Origin: Anaerolineaceae bacterium
GTDB taxonomy: Bacteria > Chloroflexota > Anaerolineae > Aggregatilineales > Phototrophicaceae
Direction: 5' to 3'
Assembly (NCBI GenBank): GCA_007693385.1
Contig: REDR01000031.1
Span: 1 to 38,246, forward strand
DNA: 38,246 nucleotides
In this document: in pieces, positions 1 through 38,246 of the stretch
Layout: the number at the start of each line of letters is the position of its first letter
Numbering within the stretch: position 1 is the stretch's first letter
The notes under the pieces: generated by a model
The model's database searches: none
What the model was told of the DNA's origin: nothing
The model's input: the letters and a program-made list of their open reading frames with translations, nothing else
Translations under genes and position numbers: made by a program

Positions 1-21
1 TAGCGGCGCATACTAGCGGCG

Positions 22-345
22 CTAAAGCTGGAAGCGGTTTTCAAAGATCACGATTTTTCGCTGGTAGCGTTGCGTGTAAGATTTGAGGCGGCGCTCGGCA
101 CGGATGAAACGTTCGTTGTGGATGGCCTGATAGATCACGTCCTGCCCTTCGCAGATGAAATCAATCTGCCGTTCGGGGCGATGGTCGCTGACCACCTGCC
201 ACGCATAGATCATGTGCAGTCCGAGTTTTTGCATCGTCGGCACGAAGTCCCCCAGAACGTAACGATAATACGAACTGTAGTGCAGGGGGTTGATGTCGTA
301 CATCAGCATCAAACGATGGGTTGGTGCAATCACAGTCATAGCCAA
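22..345 (-). CDS. Small dimeric alpha-beta-barrel-like protein (NIPSNAP-like)
   Basis: This 107-residue soluble protein has no signal peptide or membrane segment. A beta-strand-like start (RLMLMYDI) is followed by a helix with YYRYVLGDFVPTMQKLGL and then alternating strands, which resembles NIPSNAP and related dimeric alpha-beta barrels of about 100 residues. Members of that fold range from monooxygenases to proteins with no known activity, so no reaction is assigned. The start is uncertain: a GAGG motif lies 5 bases before a TTG at 345 and 11 bases before an ATG at 339. The TTG fits the ribosome-binding site better, while ATG is the commoner codon. The gene is divergent from the TPR protein starting at 458, and an inverted repeat lies between them. 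The reading frame is complete, ending at 22. Confidence 0.6.
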   Translation of the reverse strand: MAMTVIAPTHRLMLMYDINPLHYSSYYRYVLGDFVPTMQKLGLHMIYAWQVVSDHRPERQIDFICEGQDVIYQAIHNERFIRAERRLKSYTQRYQRKIVIFENRFQL

Positions 346-32812: not shown

Positions 32813-34333
32813 ATGAGCGCAACCCCGGTTGTACTTTCGACACAGGGCATCACCAAACGCTTTCCGGGCGTGCTGGCGAATGACCGCATTGATTTAGAGC
32901 TACATCACGGGCAGGTGCTAGGCTTGCTGGGTGAAAACGGCGCGGGCAAGTCCACGCTGATGAACATGATCTACGGCCTGTATAGCCCTGATGAGGGCGA
33001 GATACGGGTGAACGGCGAGATCGTGAACATCAAAGACCCGAACGACGCCATCAAGCTAGGTATCGGCATGGTGCATCAGCATTTCCAGCTAGTGCCGGTG
33101 CTGACCGTCACCGAGAACATCATGCTGGGCACGGAGTCGGTGCGCGGGCCGTTTCTGGATCGGCGCTCGGCGCGTAAGCGCATCGTGCAAATCTCGGAGC
33201 AATACGGGCTGAAAGTGAACCCCGATGCCCGCGTGCAAGATTTGCCGGTGGGCGTGCAACAGCGCGTCGAGATCATCAAGGCGCTGTACCGCGAGGCGAA
33301 AATCCTGATCCTTGATGAGCCGACGGCGGTCTTGACGCCGCAGGAAACCGAAGGGCTGTTCGAGGTGATGGCGTCGTTATTAGAGCGCGGCGTGAGCATC
33401 ATCTTCATCACGCATAAACTGAAAGAAGCGCTCCGCATTTGCGACCATATCGTGGTGTTGCGCGATGGCAAGATCGCGGGGACTGCCGACCCCAAAACGG
33501 CGACTCAGGCGACTCTAGCTTCGATGATGGTCGGGCGTGAGGTATTGCTACAGGTCGAAAAGCCGCCCGCCCAGCCGACGGATGCGGTGTTAGCGGTGCG
33601 CGACTTGACCGTGCATGATGACCGCGACTTGCCCGCCTTGAAGGATGTCTCATTCGATGTATTCGGCGGCGAAATTCTGGGCGTGGCCGGTGTGCAGGGC
33701 AACGGGCAGACCGAACTGGTGGAGGCCATCGCCGGACTGCGCGAGGTCGTCGGCGGGCAGATCGTCATGGATGGCACGGACATCACCAGCTATACGCCGC
33801 GACAGGTCACCGAAACCGGCGTGTCGCATGTGCCGGAGAACCGGCAGAAGAACGGCATGGTCGCCAATTTCTCGATTGTGGACAACATGCGCCTACAGAG
33901 CTATTACAAGCGTCCGTTTGCGCGGGGCATCGTGGCCGATGAGCAAGCGGTCAACCGCCACGCGCAGGAGTTAGTCGAGGCGTATGACGTGCGGACGCCG
34001 GGCATCTTCGTCAGTATGCAGGCGCTCTCCGGCGGCAATCAGCAGAAAGCGGTGGTCGCCCGCGAATTCTCGCGCCCTAGCCGCCTGCTGATCGTCGCAC
34101 AGCCGACTCGCGGCGTCGATGTCGGCTCTATTGAATTCATCCATAAGCAGATCGTCAAGATGCGCGACGCGGGCACGGCGGTTCTGCTGGTCAGCACGGA
34201 GTTAGACGAGATTTTATCGTTAGCGGATCGCGTCGCGGTGATGTACGCGGGCGAGATCATCGACATTTTGACGGCAGAACAGGCCAACCGTGAGCGCATC
34301 GGCCTGTTGATGGCAGGCGTGAGGGATTCTTGA
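32813..34333 (+). CDS. ABC importer ATP-binding protein, two NBDs (BMP/nucleoside type)
   Basis: This 506-residue cytoplasmic ATPase has two fused nucleotide-binding domains, as in YufO/NupO and RbsA-type proteins. NBD1 has Walker A GENGAGKST (40-48), the signature LPVGVQQR near residue 144 and Walker B LILDEPTAVL near 164-173. NBD2 has a degenerate Walker A (GVQGNGQTEL, Gln in place of Lys) and an intact LSGGNQQK signature near 405, followed by RLLIVAQPTRGVD. This asymmetry is normal for the family, where one site hydrolyses ATP. The substrate of relatives is purine nucleosides or related compounds. GGGGG lies 5 bases before the ATG. It is coupled to the permease that follows: ATG 34333 shares a base with its stop. 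Confidence 0.94.
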   Translation: MSATPVVLSTQGITKRFPGVLANDRIDLELHHGQVLGLLGENGAGKSTLMNMIYGLYSPDEGEIRVNGEIVNIKDPNDAIKLGIGMVHQHFQLVPVLTVTENIMLGTESVRGPFLDRRSARKRIVQISEQYGLKVNPDARVQDLPVGVQQRVEIIKALYREAKILILDEPTAVLTPQETEGLFEVMASLLERGVSIIFITHKLKEALRICDHIVVLRDGKIAGTADPKTATQATLASMMVGREVLLQVEKPPAQPTDAVLAVRDLTVHDDRDLPALKDVSFDVFGGEILGVAGVQGNGQTELVEAIAGLREVVGGQIVMDGTDITSYTPRQVTETGVSHVPENRQKNGMVANFSIVDNMRLQSYYKRPFARGIVADEQAVNRHAQELVEAYDVRTPGIFVSMQALSGGNQQKAVVAREFSRPSRLLIVAQPTRGVDVGSIEFIHKQIVKMRDAGTAVLLVSTELDEILSLADRVAVMYAGEIIDILTAEQANRERIGLLMAGVRDS

Positions 34334-36942
34334 TGACCGACACACAAACCACGCAGGACGCAGTACCGCCCCGCCGCTCGTTTTTCGCGCCGATTGGCCG
34401 CGCATGGGCGCGTGTTTCGCCGTCGCTGGTGCCGGTGCTAGCGGTGATGACCGCTTTAATCGCCATCATCCCGTTGATGGTGGTGACGCAGGGGCGCGGC
34501 AACATCGGGCGCGGGCTGGAGGCCACCGGCCAGACATACGCCGGACTGATGGAAGGGGCGATCGGCTTCGCGTTCAATAGCACGGTCAGCGAGAGCGATG
34601 TGGCCTTCGCGCTGGAATTCGTGCAGGCCAGCAACGCGGTCAGCGAAGCGCGACTCAACGCGCAGGGCATGACGGTTCTCGCCCGCCGCGCTGAGGATTT
34701 AGCCCGCGTCGGGCGCGATAATGTGCGCTTTTATGCGGAAGTCATCGAGCGCTATTATCAGACCGACATCCTGCCGGATAACGTCGCGTTCGACCAACTC
34801 GGCAACGCAATCACCGAGATTCAGCGCATCGGCGCGGATCGCCTGCGCGATTACGGCGCGTTGATCGACGGCTGGAACGAACTGGCGACGGTGGATGTGC
34901 GCGACTTCGGCGAGCTATACGGCGATCTGGACGCGCTGGACGAGATCACCCGCGCCCGTCTGGATGCGCTGTTGCCGGAACTCATGCTGACCGACGACCA
35001 GACATTGCTGGGCGCGTTCGCGTTGATGCGCGATTTTCCGTTCGTTCAGCTTGTGGTGCAGACGCGCAACGTCCGCGACGGCGACGTGACCGACTTCGCC
35101 GAGCAGATCGGCGTCGATAATCTGCAAACTTACGGCGACGTGTTTCTGAGCCTTGATGACCTGCGTAGTACCGGCGTGTTGAATGCGTTCGTGGAGCGCT
35201 TCGGCCTGCTGGATGTGATCGACCTTGACGCACGCGAACAGATCGAAGTGCTGGTGCCCGTCGCCGCCGAATACGACGATGATGAGCTATTCGACGCCAT
35301 CCGGCTACTGCGTGAGCGCACGCTGATCCGGCTGACGCGGGCGCTGGTACAGTTGCGCGTGCTGGATCGACTGGACTTGCAGGCGGACGACGACGACGCG
35401 CAAGCCATCGCCGCGATTCACCGCCTGAGTACAGACCGCACCAACCCCAACGGCATCAGCAACGTGCAACGCATCGACGAAGCAGACCGCACCTTCATCG
35501 CGGCGGGCATTGAGGAGAGCGACATCCCGCAATTGGCGGCGGAGTTGCGTCTGGTGGCGAATCTGTATAACGGCGTGCTGACACGGGCGGATGTGGAACG
35601 CGCCCTGAGCGAAGAATTGCCGGTCCGCGCCGAAGAAATCGCCATCATCCGGCGGCCTAATAGTCAGGTGCTGGTCTTGCAAGACCTGAGCGCCTTCGGC
35701 ATGACTCAGCGCGAACGGACGCGGGTTACAACGTCCGGCAGTGGCGAAGGGCACACCACCGTCACCGAGCAAGTGACCGTGCCAGATCGCCTATTCGCCC
35801 GCGTATTCGACCATTACGTGCTGTTCTCCCCCGCCAGTCTAGAGCAAACGCTGACCCGTTCGCTACCGTTCATCATTGCGGGGCTGGCGGTGGCGCTGGG
35901 CTTCAAGGCCGGTCTGTTCAACATCGGCGCGGAGGGGCAGTTATACATGGGGGCGACGCTGGCGGCGTGGTTCGGCTTCAGCCCGCTATTCGGCAGTCTG
36001 CATCCGGTGTTTCATGTGCCATTGGTGCTGATGGGCGGGTTAATCGGCGGGGCATTATGGGGGATGATTCCGGGTATACTGAAAGCGTATACCGGGGCGC
36101 ATGAGGTGATTAACACCATCATGCTGAACTTCATCGCTATCCGGCTGACCGACTGGCTGATTAAATCGACCAACCCGTACATCATCGGCGACCCGAACGC
36201 CAGCGCCCCGCGCACCCCGTTCCTAGACCTGAGCGCCCGCCTGACCAAGTTCGACCAGATCGGCGCGAGCGTGTTCATCATGGCCGGTCTGCTGGTGGCC
36301 GCGTTCTACATCTTCATGCGCTACAACCAGATCAAGGCGAATCCCCGCGCTATCATCCGCCCGATTATCTACGGCGTGATGGTGGCGGTGGGCGGCTTCG
36401 CGTTGCGCTGGCTGACCGTCGGCGGCAATCTGCACATCGGGCTGGTGGTGATGTTGCTGACCGTGATACTGGTCGATTGGTTCCTGGAGCGCACCACCAT
36501 CGGCTTTGAATTGCGGACGGTAGGCGCGAACGCGGACGCGGCGCAATACGCCGGCATGAACGTCAAGCGCAATGTCATCATCGCCATGACGCTAAGCGGG
36601 GCGCTGGCTGGTCTGGCCGGTATCGTGGAAATCGGCGGCGTGCAGTACAGCATGGAACCGGCGTTCTTCTCCGGCTTGGGCTTCGATGCGATTGCGGTGG
36701 CGTTGCTGGCTCGCAATAACCCGCGCTACATGATCCCGGCGGGCATCCTGTGGGGCGCGTTGCTGACCGGTGCGGCGGCGATTCAGGTGTATAACATCCC
36801 GATTGATCTGGTGAACATCATACAGGCGTTGATTATCATGTTCATCGCGGCGGACGCGATCATCCGCGTGGTGTACCGTATTCCAGAAGCGACAGAAGAA
36901 GAGAAATCGAAAATGGTGTTTTCAACCGGCTGGGGGTCTTAA
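34333..36942 (+). CDS. ABC importer permease with large extra domain (NupP/YufP-like)
   Basis: This 869-residue permease is more than twice the family length of about 350. Residues about 32-52 form a first membrane helix (LVPVLAVMTALIAIIPLMVV). The usual short approach to the permease core (QTYAGLMEGAIGFAF) is then interrupted at about residue 84 by roughly 400 soluble, acidic residues (84-490) of helical pattern. The core resumes near 497 with LEQTLTRSLPFIIAGLAVAL and the hallmark FKAGLFNIGAEGQLYMGA, then carries all the remaining BPD_transp_2-type helices (FLERTTIGFELRTVGANADA, the EAA-like loop). The extra domain should lie outside the membrane and may contact the substrate-binding protein or the wall; inference. 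Start ATG 34333 overlaps the upstream TGA by one base. Confidence 0.9.
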   Translation: MTDTQTTQDAVPPRRSFFAPIGRAWARVSPSLVPVLAVMTALIAIIPLMVVTQGRGNIGRGLEATGQTYAGLMEGAIGFAFNSTVSESDVAFALEFVQASNAVSEARLNAQGMTVLARRAEDLARVGRDNVRFYAEVIERYYQTDILPDNVAFDQLGNAITEIQRIGADRLRDYGALIDGWNELATVDVRDFGELYGDLDALDEITRARLDALLPELMLTDDQTLLGAFALMRDFPFVQLVVQTRNVRDGDVTDFAEQIGVDNLQTYGDVFLSLDDLRSTGVLNAFVERFGLLDVIDLDAREQIEVLVPVAAEYDDDELFDAIRLLRERTLIRLTRALVQLRVLDRLDLQADDDDAQAIAAIHRLSTDRTNPNGISNVQRIDEADRTFIAAGIEESDIPQLAAELRLVANLYNGVLTRADVERALSEELPVRAEEIAIIRRPNSQVLVLQDLSAFGMTQRERTRVTTSGSGEGHTTVTEQVTVPDRLFARVFDHYVLFSPASLEQTLTRSLPFIIAGLAVALGFKAGLFNIGAEGQLYMGATLAAWFGFSPLFGSLHPVFHVPLVLMGGLIGGALWGMIPGILKAYTGAHEVINTIMLNFIAIRLTDWLIKSTNPYIIGDPNASAPRTPFLDLSARLTKFDQIGASVFIMAGLLVAAFYIFMRYNQIKANPRAIIRPIIYGVMVAVGGFALRWLTVGGNLHIGLVVMLLTVILVDWFLERTTIGFELRTVGANADAAQYAGMNVKRNVIIAMTLSGALAGLAGIVEIGGVQYSMEPAFFSGLGFDAIAVALLARNNPRYMIPAGILWGALLTGAAAIQVYNIPIDLVNIIQALIIMFIAADAIIRVVYRIPEATEEEKSKMVFSTGWGS

Positions 36943-38246
36943 TGGCAAGCATGGCGATCACTTCATCAAACGACGGACGGGCGTCAAGCTGGCGCGACTG
37001 GTTCGCCATCACACGGATCGGTATTTTCTCGGTGGTGTTCATCGTGGCGGGGCTGGCGATGCTGTTTCACACGCCGTCGGTCATCCCGGGCGATGTGTCC
37101 TCCACATTGCGCTTTCCGCATCGCGGCGGGCTGGGCTTCGATCTGGTCGTGCCGACGGTGCCGTATGCGCTGGTCGTCGGGTTGTCCTATCTGCTGGGCG
37201 GGCTGTTCGGCTTGTTCGCGCCGTCGCGTTATGAGCGCGTCAAGACAATCTGGCTGATCGTCAACGGCGTGTTGATTATCCCGACGGTGATGGTACTGGC
37301 GGCGGCGGGCAAAGCGACCAATATGGTGTCGATGCTGGCGGCCAGTTTCCGGCTGGCGACGCCGATCATCATCGGCGCGATGGCCGGAATCTGGTGCGAA
37401 CGTTCCGGCGTCATCAACATCGCCATTGAGGGCATGATGCTGACGGCGGCCTGCTTCGGTCTGGTGGCGTATACGTACATCGCGCTGATGTATCCGGGCG
37501 AAGTCGGCCAGTGGATGGGAATCGGCGTGGCGGTACTATCCGGCGGGCTGATGGCGCTGTTGCACGCATGGCTTTCGGTCACGTTCAAGACCGATCAGAT
37601 CATTAGCGGCACGGTCATCAACATCTTCGCGCTGGGGATCACCGCGTTCGCCCGCACCGAACTACTGATTAACGCCGATGCGTCGGTGCAGACCTTGCGC
37701 GAAATTCGCATCCCGTTATTGTCGGAATTGCCGGTGCTGGGTGAAGTCTTGTTTAGCGGCAAGCCGATTTTCTTCTCGATGTTCATCGTGGTCATCCTGA
37801 CGCATGTGATGTTGTATTACACGCGCTGGGGTTTGCGGACTCGCGCTGTTGGCGAGAACCCGCACGCGGCGGACACGCTGGGAATCAACGTGCCGCGCAA
37901 TCGGTATATCAATGTGATTATCGGCGGGATGATCGCGGGGTTGGCGGGCGCGTGGTTCACCATCGAGACGGCGGGCACATTCCGCGAAGCGATCACGTCG
38001 GGCACGGGGTTCATCGCGCTGGCGGCGATGATCTTCGGCAAGTGGACGCCAGCCGGTGCGATGGCGGGCGGGTTGCTGTTCGGCTTCTCGCAGGCGCTCG
38101 ATACGCGCTTTCAGTTCCTTGAGGTTGGCGTGCCGGTGCAATTCATCCAGATGACGCCGTATATCGTGACGATGGTGGTGCTGGCCGGTCTGGTCGGGCG
38201 GGCGATCCCGCCGAAGGCCATCGGCAAGCCATACAGCAAAGAGTGA
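36942..38246 (+). CDS. ABC importer second permease (NupQ/YufQ-like)
   Basis: This 434-residue permease has about nine or ten helices and the family landmarks LATPIIIGAMAGIWCERSGV then INIAIEGMMLTAACFG, the equivalent of the NIGxEG hallmark, a loop with TRWGLRTRAVGENPHAAD then TLGINVPRNRY (the coupling-helix region), and ITSGTGFIALAAMIFGKWTP near the end. It pairs with the permease before it to form the heterodimeric channel. Its ATG (36942) overlaps the upstream TAA by one base, so all three ABC genes are tightly coupled. The stop codon ends at the last base of the window, so it is complete. The N-terminal 60 residues hold one or two extra helices. No substrate-binding protein gene lies in the window. 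Confidence 0.93.
   Translation: MASMAITSSNDGRASSWRDWFAITRIGIFSVVFIVAGLAMLFHTPSVIPGDVSSTLRFPHRGGLGFDLVVPTVPYALVVGLSYLLGGLFGLFAPSRYERVKTIWLIVNGVLIIPTVMVLAAAGKATNMVSMLAASFRLATPIIIGAMAGIWCERSGVINIAIEGMMLTAACFGLVAYTYIALMYPGEVGQWMGIGVAVLSGGLMALLHAWLSVTFKTDQIISGTVINIFALGITAFARTELLINADASVQTLREIRIPLLSELPVLGEVLFSGKPIFFSMFIVVILTHVMLYYTRWGLRTRAVGENPHAADTLGINVPRNRYINVIIGGMIAGLAGAWFTIETAGTFREAITSGTGFIALAAMIFGKWTPAGAMAGGLLFGFSQALDTRFQFLEVGVPVQFIQMTPYIVTMVVLAGLVGRAIPPKAIGKPYSKE

Follow-up and report, generated by a model that had tools for sequence, protein, structure and literature searches.

A large extracytoplasmic domain predicted after the first membrane helix of a BMP-type ABC importer permease is a feature of one Anaerolineae family

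An ATP-binding cassette (ABC) importer permease with a large domain between its first and second transmembrane helices (TM1 and TM2) is encoded near the end of the window, the 38,246-base stretch of DNA analysed here, which is the complete contig REDR01000031.1 (G000:C135) of an Anaerolineaceae bacterium (genome G000). The gene, at 34333..36942 on the + strand, encodes 869 aa. Its product is best explained as permease 1 of a type II ABC importer of the BMP (nucleoside-like) type, which would be made up of an ATPase, permease 1, permease 2 and a separate BMP binding protein. The insert is a feature of the window's bacterial family, neither unique to the window nor an artefact. Its anatomy and its location outside the membrane, as judged by a structure model and homology, are together very probable. 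Docking or retention of the BMP binding protein is the best-supported reading of its function, because the domain is placed on the docking face, the binding protein is kept and MalF-P2 provides a precedent. The explanation taken whole, a permease 1 whose outer-face domain would dock or retain BMP, comes close to an even chance of being right.

The original prediction described 869 residues in one frame, with an acidic, helical block at about residues 84-490 following the first helix. The open frame, the composition and the model all agree with this description, and the block is close to the insert as counted here, 425 aa between G78, the end of a conserved helix after TM1, and E504, at the start of TM2. 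Alignment with 29 relatives, with 55, and with insert-less homologues placed the inserted domain at residues 79-503 (34567..35841; all coordinates of window features given here are on the + strand). Of the 60 insert loci, 55 entered one alignment, and 52 of those plus the window entered two further ones. TM1 occupies residues 30-52 (34420..34488) as an AlphaFold helix and 26-55 by hydropathy. The conserved helix that follows it (residues 58-77, 34504..34563; alignment and model) is the equivalent of AYxALWxGSFG in insert-less homologues, one of which, L121, reads VPVLAVITALAIGAVIIWLTGKDPIAAFSGLWAGSFGSPRAIERTIIRSTPFIIAGLAVALGFKAGLFNIGAEGQ. Compared with such homologues, the insert is placed between the GSFG-type helix end and TM2. 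It has a helical part (residues 87-435, 34591..35637), seen in the window model and in the fold of a typical 300-aa insert, and a beta base (residues 437-498, 35641..35826), seen as model strands and carrying a conserved RRPxN motif (R441, 55/56; P442, 53/56). The permease core from TM2 to the last TM helix (residues 500-850, 35830..36882) was delimited by Pfam, the model and fold comparison.

In all 55 aligned homologues an insert occupies this position, with a length of 217-398 aa (291-313 aa in 48/55); across the 56 aligned permeases that include the window, the G78-E504 stretch spans 217-425 aa (291-313 in 48). The position and length of the insert are therefore not due to chance. An assembly or frame artefact joining two genes has virtually no chance of explaining the block, since the window gene is one open frame and the same architecture recurs in dozens of other assemblies. 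The inserts are acidic, with 2868 D+E vs 1394 K+R and no cysteine over 17,092 aligned residues. Residues 80-500 of the window protein contain 0 lysine and 0 cysteine and have a net charge of -35.

The AlphaFold model of full permease 1 has a predicted local distance difference test (pLDDT) score of 86.2, and stretches below 50 are confined to residues 1-8, 215-274, 291-297 and 861-869. A typical insert of ~300 aa modelled alone scored pLDDT 95.3 with a predicted template modelling score of 0.87. The model runs in the order TM1 30-52, helix 58-77, strand 79-84, helices 87-435, strands 437-498 and TM2 500-525, so that the modelled insert is mainly helical, stands on a small beta base and lies next to a core that resembles BtuC. 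Comparison with VIA-align matched the predicted core to BtuC (1l7v) with Z 15.2 and a root mean square deviation of 5.3 over 284 residues, model residues 19..842 aligning on BtuC 1..324; the scores against 4g1u and 2qi9 were Z 14.8 and Z 13.9. The predicted core thus folds like a type II ABC importer permease. Because BtuC 1-324 aligns over model residues 19-842, the insert would interrupt the first extracytoplasmic loop. Seven membrane helices separate it in the model from the putative cytoplasmic coupling helices at residues 722-739 (36496..36549; model helices 722-732 and 734-739, GFELRTVGAN region), which we take, from the family, to play the coupling role. With seven helices in between, the insert is placed outside, provided that the coupling helix is inside, and its acidity fits an outside location. 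The original prediction had put the block outside the membrane, and both the helix count and the type II core fold point the same way.

An insert-only profile matched 85/154 genomes of the order, 83/98 in the window's family and two in another family (G479, complete, E 1e-82; G477, a fragment). In a sample of the whole phylum it matched 2/400 genomes, both of the window's family. Surveying Chloroflexota homologues, as proposed with the original prediction, thus located the insert. As to whether the insertion is a common, described feature, which would have counted against that prediction, it is common only within one family (83/98 genomes), and our literature search found no published description of it. 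When 61 genomes were searched with the protein, the 29 best-matched frames of other family members that were given a locus measured 662-875 aa (window frame, 882). The best-matched frames in other families of the order were mostly 377-451 aa where uncut, with the exceptions of G055 (760, a BMP fusion) and G038 (539). A single-protein scan of genome contigs gave no match; loci were found instead by a conserved-block alignment search, in which the best 80 of 485 were named, 60 with the insert and 20 with the core only. The 60 insert loci are labelled Anaerolineae, Chloroflexi, Aggregatilineales and similar, except for one Bacteroidetes (L080) and one Pleurocapsa (L099), both probably mis-binned. 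The genome of the window has seven further permease matches; the frames of five of them, at 333-375 aa, leave no room for an insert of this kind. A 712-aa frame (L008) in this genome looks by eye like an all-membrane LivM-type protein, not an insert-bearing one. In a tree of permease cores, 30 insert-bearing sequences are split from 8 insert-less ones (Chloroflexales, Ardenticatenia) by a branch with support 100/100. The insert was probably gained once, in the ancestor of one Anaerolineae family.

The search with the insert alone that accompanied the original prediction as a check returned no credible relative in Pfam or the PDB. The window insert matched no Pfam family. The 53 inserts matched 28 families at 0.1 or better, with 1-3 members each and a best value of 2e-4 (Tfb5, one member); these look like chance matches. 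By sequence, the whole protein had no PDB match at E 1, and an insert profile gave chance-level matches only (best E 0.015). By fold, the insert alone had no significant PDB match with Foldseek (best E 0.25), and the best VIA hit, Z 4.0 over 68 residues to TrwB, is too low for a helical domain. None of these searches gives a clear relative, which is not proof of a new fold.

The helical domain and beta base, inserted in the extracytoplasmic TM1-TM2 loop, would project from the outer face and may dock or retain the BMP binding protein beside the translocation path. It would thereby serve BMP as MalF-P2 serves MalE, though its fold and its place in the permease are different. Considered by itself, the claim that the insert docks or retains BMP stands somewhat short of even. 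According to an excerpt of PMC3150292, MalF-P2 spans residues 91-271, has beta structure and contacts the binding protein. MalFGK2 shares with the window protein a large extracytoplasmic insertion in a permease subunit. However, MalF belongs to a type I importer, whereas the window protein has a core that matches type II permeases and an insert that follows TM1 and is mainly helical; in these respects it differs from a MalF-P2-type loop, and no relationship is claimed.

BMP genes are present in 96/98 genomes of the window's family and in 82/83 of its insert-bearing genomes, G005 being the only one without. A close orthologue (E 1e-30) was found in 44/49 family genomes searched, and in 15/60 insert loci, some of which end early, permease 2 is followed within 2.5 kb by a BMP gene of the same orientation. 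Because the BMP gene is kept in 82/83 insert-bearing genomes, the insert adds to the binding protein and does not replace it. The original prediction had suggested replacement as one option, and this part was not borne out. A domain that captures substrate itself and so replaces the binding protein is very improbable. The outer-face position would suit it, the window's contig has no BMP gene, and close orthologues were not found in insert-bearing G005, G023 and G494 (incomplete assemblies). Against it, besides the retained BMP genes, there is no binding-protein family among the 25 shown of the 28 weak Pfam matches of the 53 inserts, and the conserved insert positions are mainly G, L, P, R, A, V and D.

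A single BMP (PF02608) gene is present in the window's genome. It lies on a different contig and is cut at the contig end; the last 120 bases of that contig share no stretch of 20 bases with the window. The encoded protein is a lipoprotein with an acidic linker and a fasciclin domain, followed by BMP (L039:586-2412, PF02469 before BMP). A second BMP-fasciclin fusion, L098:13669-15243, has the fasciclin domain after BMP by sequence match. The BMP frames in G028 and in the window's genome are preceded by frames that by eye resemble an ABC-2 exporter, and in these two genomes the BMP gene is probably simply elsewhere. Frames with tandem double BMP domains occur near the operon in L058, L085, L090, L092-L094, L101, L105, L106, L110, L116 and L119, and also in L120 and L123. 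Genome G055, from a different family of the order, has a 735-aa frame (L140:4067-6274, -) that fuses a BMP domain (14-303) to an insert-less permease 1 (BPD_transp_2 425-705). The frame overlaps the ATPase gene by 4 bases and has no room for a signal peptide, and its BMP domain would be cytoplasmic by topology.

Several observations weigh against docking, the absent orthologues of G005, G023 and G494 and part of the lipid-anchor data below among them. Foldseek found no PDB match for the whole model at 0.001 (best E 0.028, to PsaBC). The helical part of the insert is poorly conserved. Co-variation of insert and BMP distances in 26/28 genomes (G003 and G008 were dropped for short sequence) is weak (partial r 0.25, p 0.035). 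Insert distances follow those of the ATPase beyond the core more closely (partial r 0.37, p 0.0005), and since the insert-BMP value is the smaller, it is not specific.

The ATPase co-variation would also fit a regulatory lid or assembly domain, which gates the outer cavity or stabilizes the permease 1-permease 2 pair. The insert starts and ends with strands adjoining TM1 and TM2, and its beta base, close to the membrane, is conserved better than the rest (mean pairwise identity 0.45 vs 0.34-0.36 in the helical parts). However, the same ATPase gene is in other loci followed by insert-less homologues (46-66% core identity), so this importer type does not need the insert, and nothing positive points to gating. 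We regard a lid or assembly role as unlikely. Envelope contact, in which the domain would reach the peptidoglycan or a surface layer or set the spacing of the importer there, unrelated to the binding protein, likewise falls on the unlikely side. Scaffold-like properties speak for it, the insert being acidic, cysteine-free and fast-evolving (mean distance 1.21 vs 0.49 for the core in the 26 genomes) yet steady in length. Chloroflexota are considered monoderm and some have multilayered envelopes, according to an excerpt of PMC13319060. Nevertheless, no envelope-binding family is among the Pfam matches shown.

The anchoring of BMP differs between the window's family and close insert-less orthologues, which counts in favour of docking. 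In the window's family 49/55 BMP orthologue entries, which include at least three genome repeats (L094/G525, L106/G511, L085/L093) as well as G017 and G019, in which the insert was not found, have a signal peptide without a lipobox and almost no linker. In contrast, 31/31 close insert-less orthologues, taken from few families and chosen by E 1e-80 or gene order, are lipoproteins in which a linker (median 46 residues) separates the Cys from the domain. For those with handles above G060, the insert-less status rests on the lack of an insert-profile match in the phylum sample, of whose 398 non-matching genomes only 20 are listed. The permease domain might be imagined as a tether for BMP proteins secreted unanchored from cells thought to be without an outer membrane, the anchor having moved from binding protein to transporter. 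The insert would have come first, as it is present in members with anchored BMP, and would then have made the lipid anchor dispensable. We consider this quite unlikely. If true, the family's unanchored cognate BMP would be kept at the importer by the permease domain.

The remaining points against concern these anchors. Four insert-bearing genomes, the window's G000 together with G002, G009 and G028, have lipoprotein BMP only; two more, G014 and G030, have both kinds. In the tree these four fall within the bigger half of the insert clade, which is poorly resolved, a placement compatible with a single ancestral state. In G041, which is not of the window's family, the permease is without the insert and yet the neighbouring BMP has no anchor. 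Distant BMP proteins from other families of the order (n=25) are mixed, 13 with a lipobox, 10 without and 2 unclear; with L250 of the window's family the 26 loci give 13, 11 and 2. Other binding proteins of the window's family (loci L284-L343) also have no lipobox in 50/55 classifiable cases, even though five of the seven other permease frames in the window's genome are too short to hold the insert. These comprise 28/28 classifiable SBP_bac_8 proteins, with 2 more unclear, and 22/27 classifiable Peripla_BP_4 proteins, with 3 more unclear and one lipobox case (L342) doubtful. Because 50/55 other binding proteins are also without a lipobox, the anchor difference tracks lineage and by itself gives no credit to the insert.

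Anchor loss as proof of tethering was rejected on the same count, being family-wide. Loss of the lipoprotein machinery as the cause of unanchored BMP was ruled out, as LGT is present in 154/154 genomes of the order and signal peptidase II (LspA) in 145/154. The retention of binding proteins without a lipobox in presumed monoderm cells that have lipoprotein enzymes is a puzzle. Insert-bearing importers offer a concrete test of how anchor-less binding proteins stay near importers in bacteria held to be monoderm.

Among the closest known systems are the BMP-type nucleoside importers, which we take to include those named NupNOPQ and BmpDEFG, and the P48 locus of mycoplasmas. Like the window's importer they have a double ATPase and two unlike BPD_transp_2 permeases; for their BMP-family binding protein the window's genome has a candidate counterpart on another contig. 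In the insert-less homologues of this analysis, permease 1 frames mostly measure 377-451 aa. OpuA and GlnPQ, importers with the binding domain fused to the permease, share an extra extracytoplasmic domain on the permease polypeptide. They differ in that the window's insert matches no binding-protein family in Pfam, as a fused substrate-binding domain would, and gave no clear fold match of any kind, and a separate BMP is kept. The type II permeases BtuC and HmuU share the core fold, and the insert lies between the parts that match the first and second BtuC helices. To our knowledge, few importer permeases carry a large folded domain of this extracytoplasmic kind. The insert is a family-specific domain in a known importer class, and if a whole family has such a domain with no recognisable relatives, this would show that a type II importer can have its docking face rebuilt. 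In the P48 locus of Mycoplasma bovis, transposon positions given in an excerpt of PMC12892991 imply, by our own estimate, a permease of ~650 aa between the ATPase and the second permease. By these coordinates the mycoplasma permease 1 may also be enlarged.

The window copy of the insert is longer (425 aa) than the typical ~300 aa. An internal duplication accounts for some of this difference, because residues 164-240 (34822..35052) resemble residues 257-334 (35101..35334) with 31% identity over 78 columns (E 6e-8) and positions 75-152 of the insert profile match twice. The low-confidence part of the model, about residues 208-300, falls within the duplicated region. Insert-profile matches overlap similarly in G010 (positions 1-175 and 114-300), and one genus has the insert shortened to 217 aa. 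Together with the low identity, this duplication and shortening would fit structural baggage of the lineage, an insertion that evolves fast and does little. However, near-constant length in 48/55 homologues and retention in 83/98 family genomes speak for selection, making baggage distinctly improbable.

The permease 1 frame begins with the ATG at 34333 and runs without interruption to its stop at 36942; an alternative TTG start 3 bases upstream would give 870 aa. Its PF02653 (BPD_transp_2) match covers residues 503-838 only and, at 123.2 bits against a cut-off of 26.8, makes it a member of that family. With 149.3 bits it does not reach the cut-off of 400 for NF047929 (putative B6 ABC transporter permease 2). 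The preceding gene (32813..34333) encodes the double ATP-binding subunit of the same importer, 506 aa with two ABC_tran stretches, closest to NF047930 but below its cut-off. Permease 2 (36942..38246, 434 aa, PF02653 132-398) begins at the end of permease 1. The three genes touch on one strand and so probably form one operon; a double ATPase with two permeases in one operon is the arrangement of a BMP-type nucleoside importer. Gene clusters around the operon, judged by eye, name no substrate. The window, being the whole contig, offers no sequence past the stop codon of permease 2, in which ~130 residues, with further hydrophobic stretches by eye, precede the BPD_transp_2 match.

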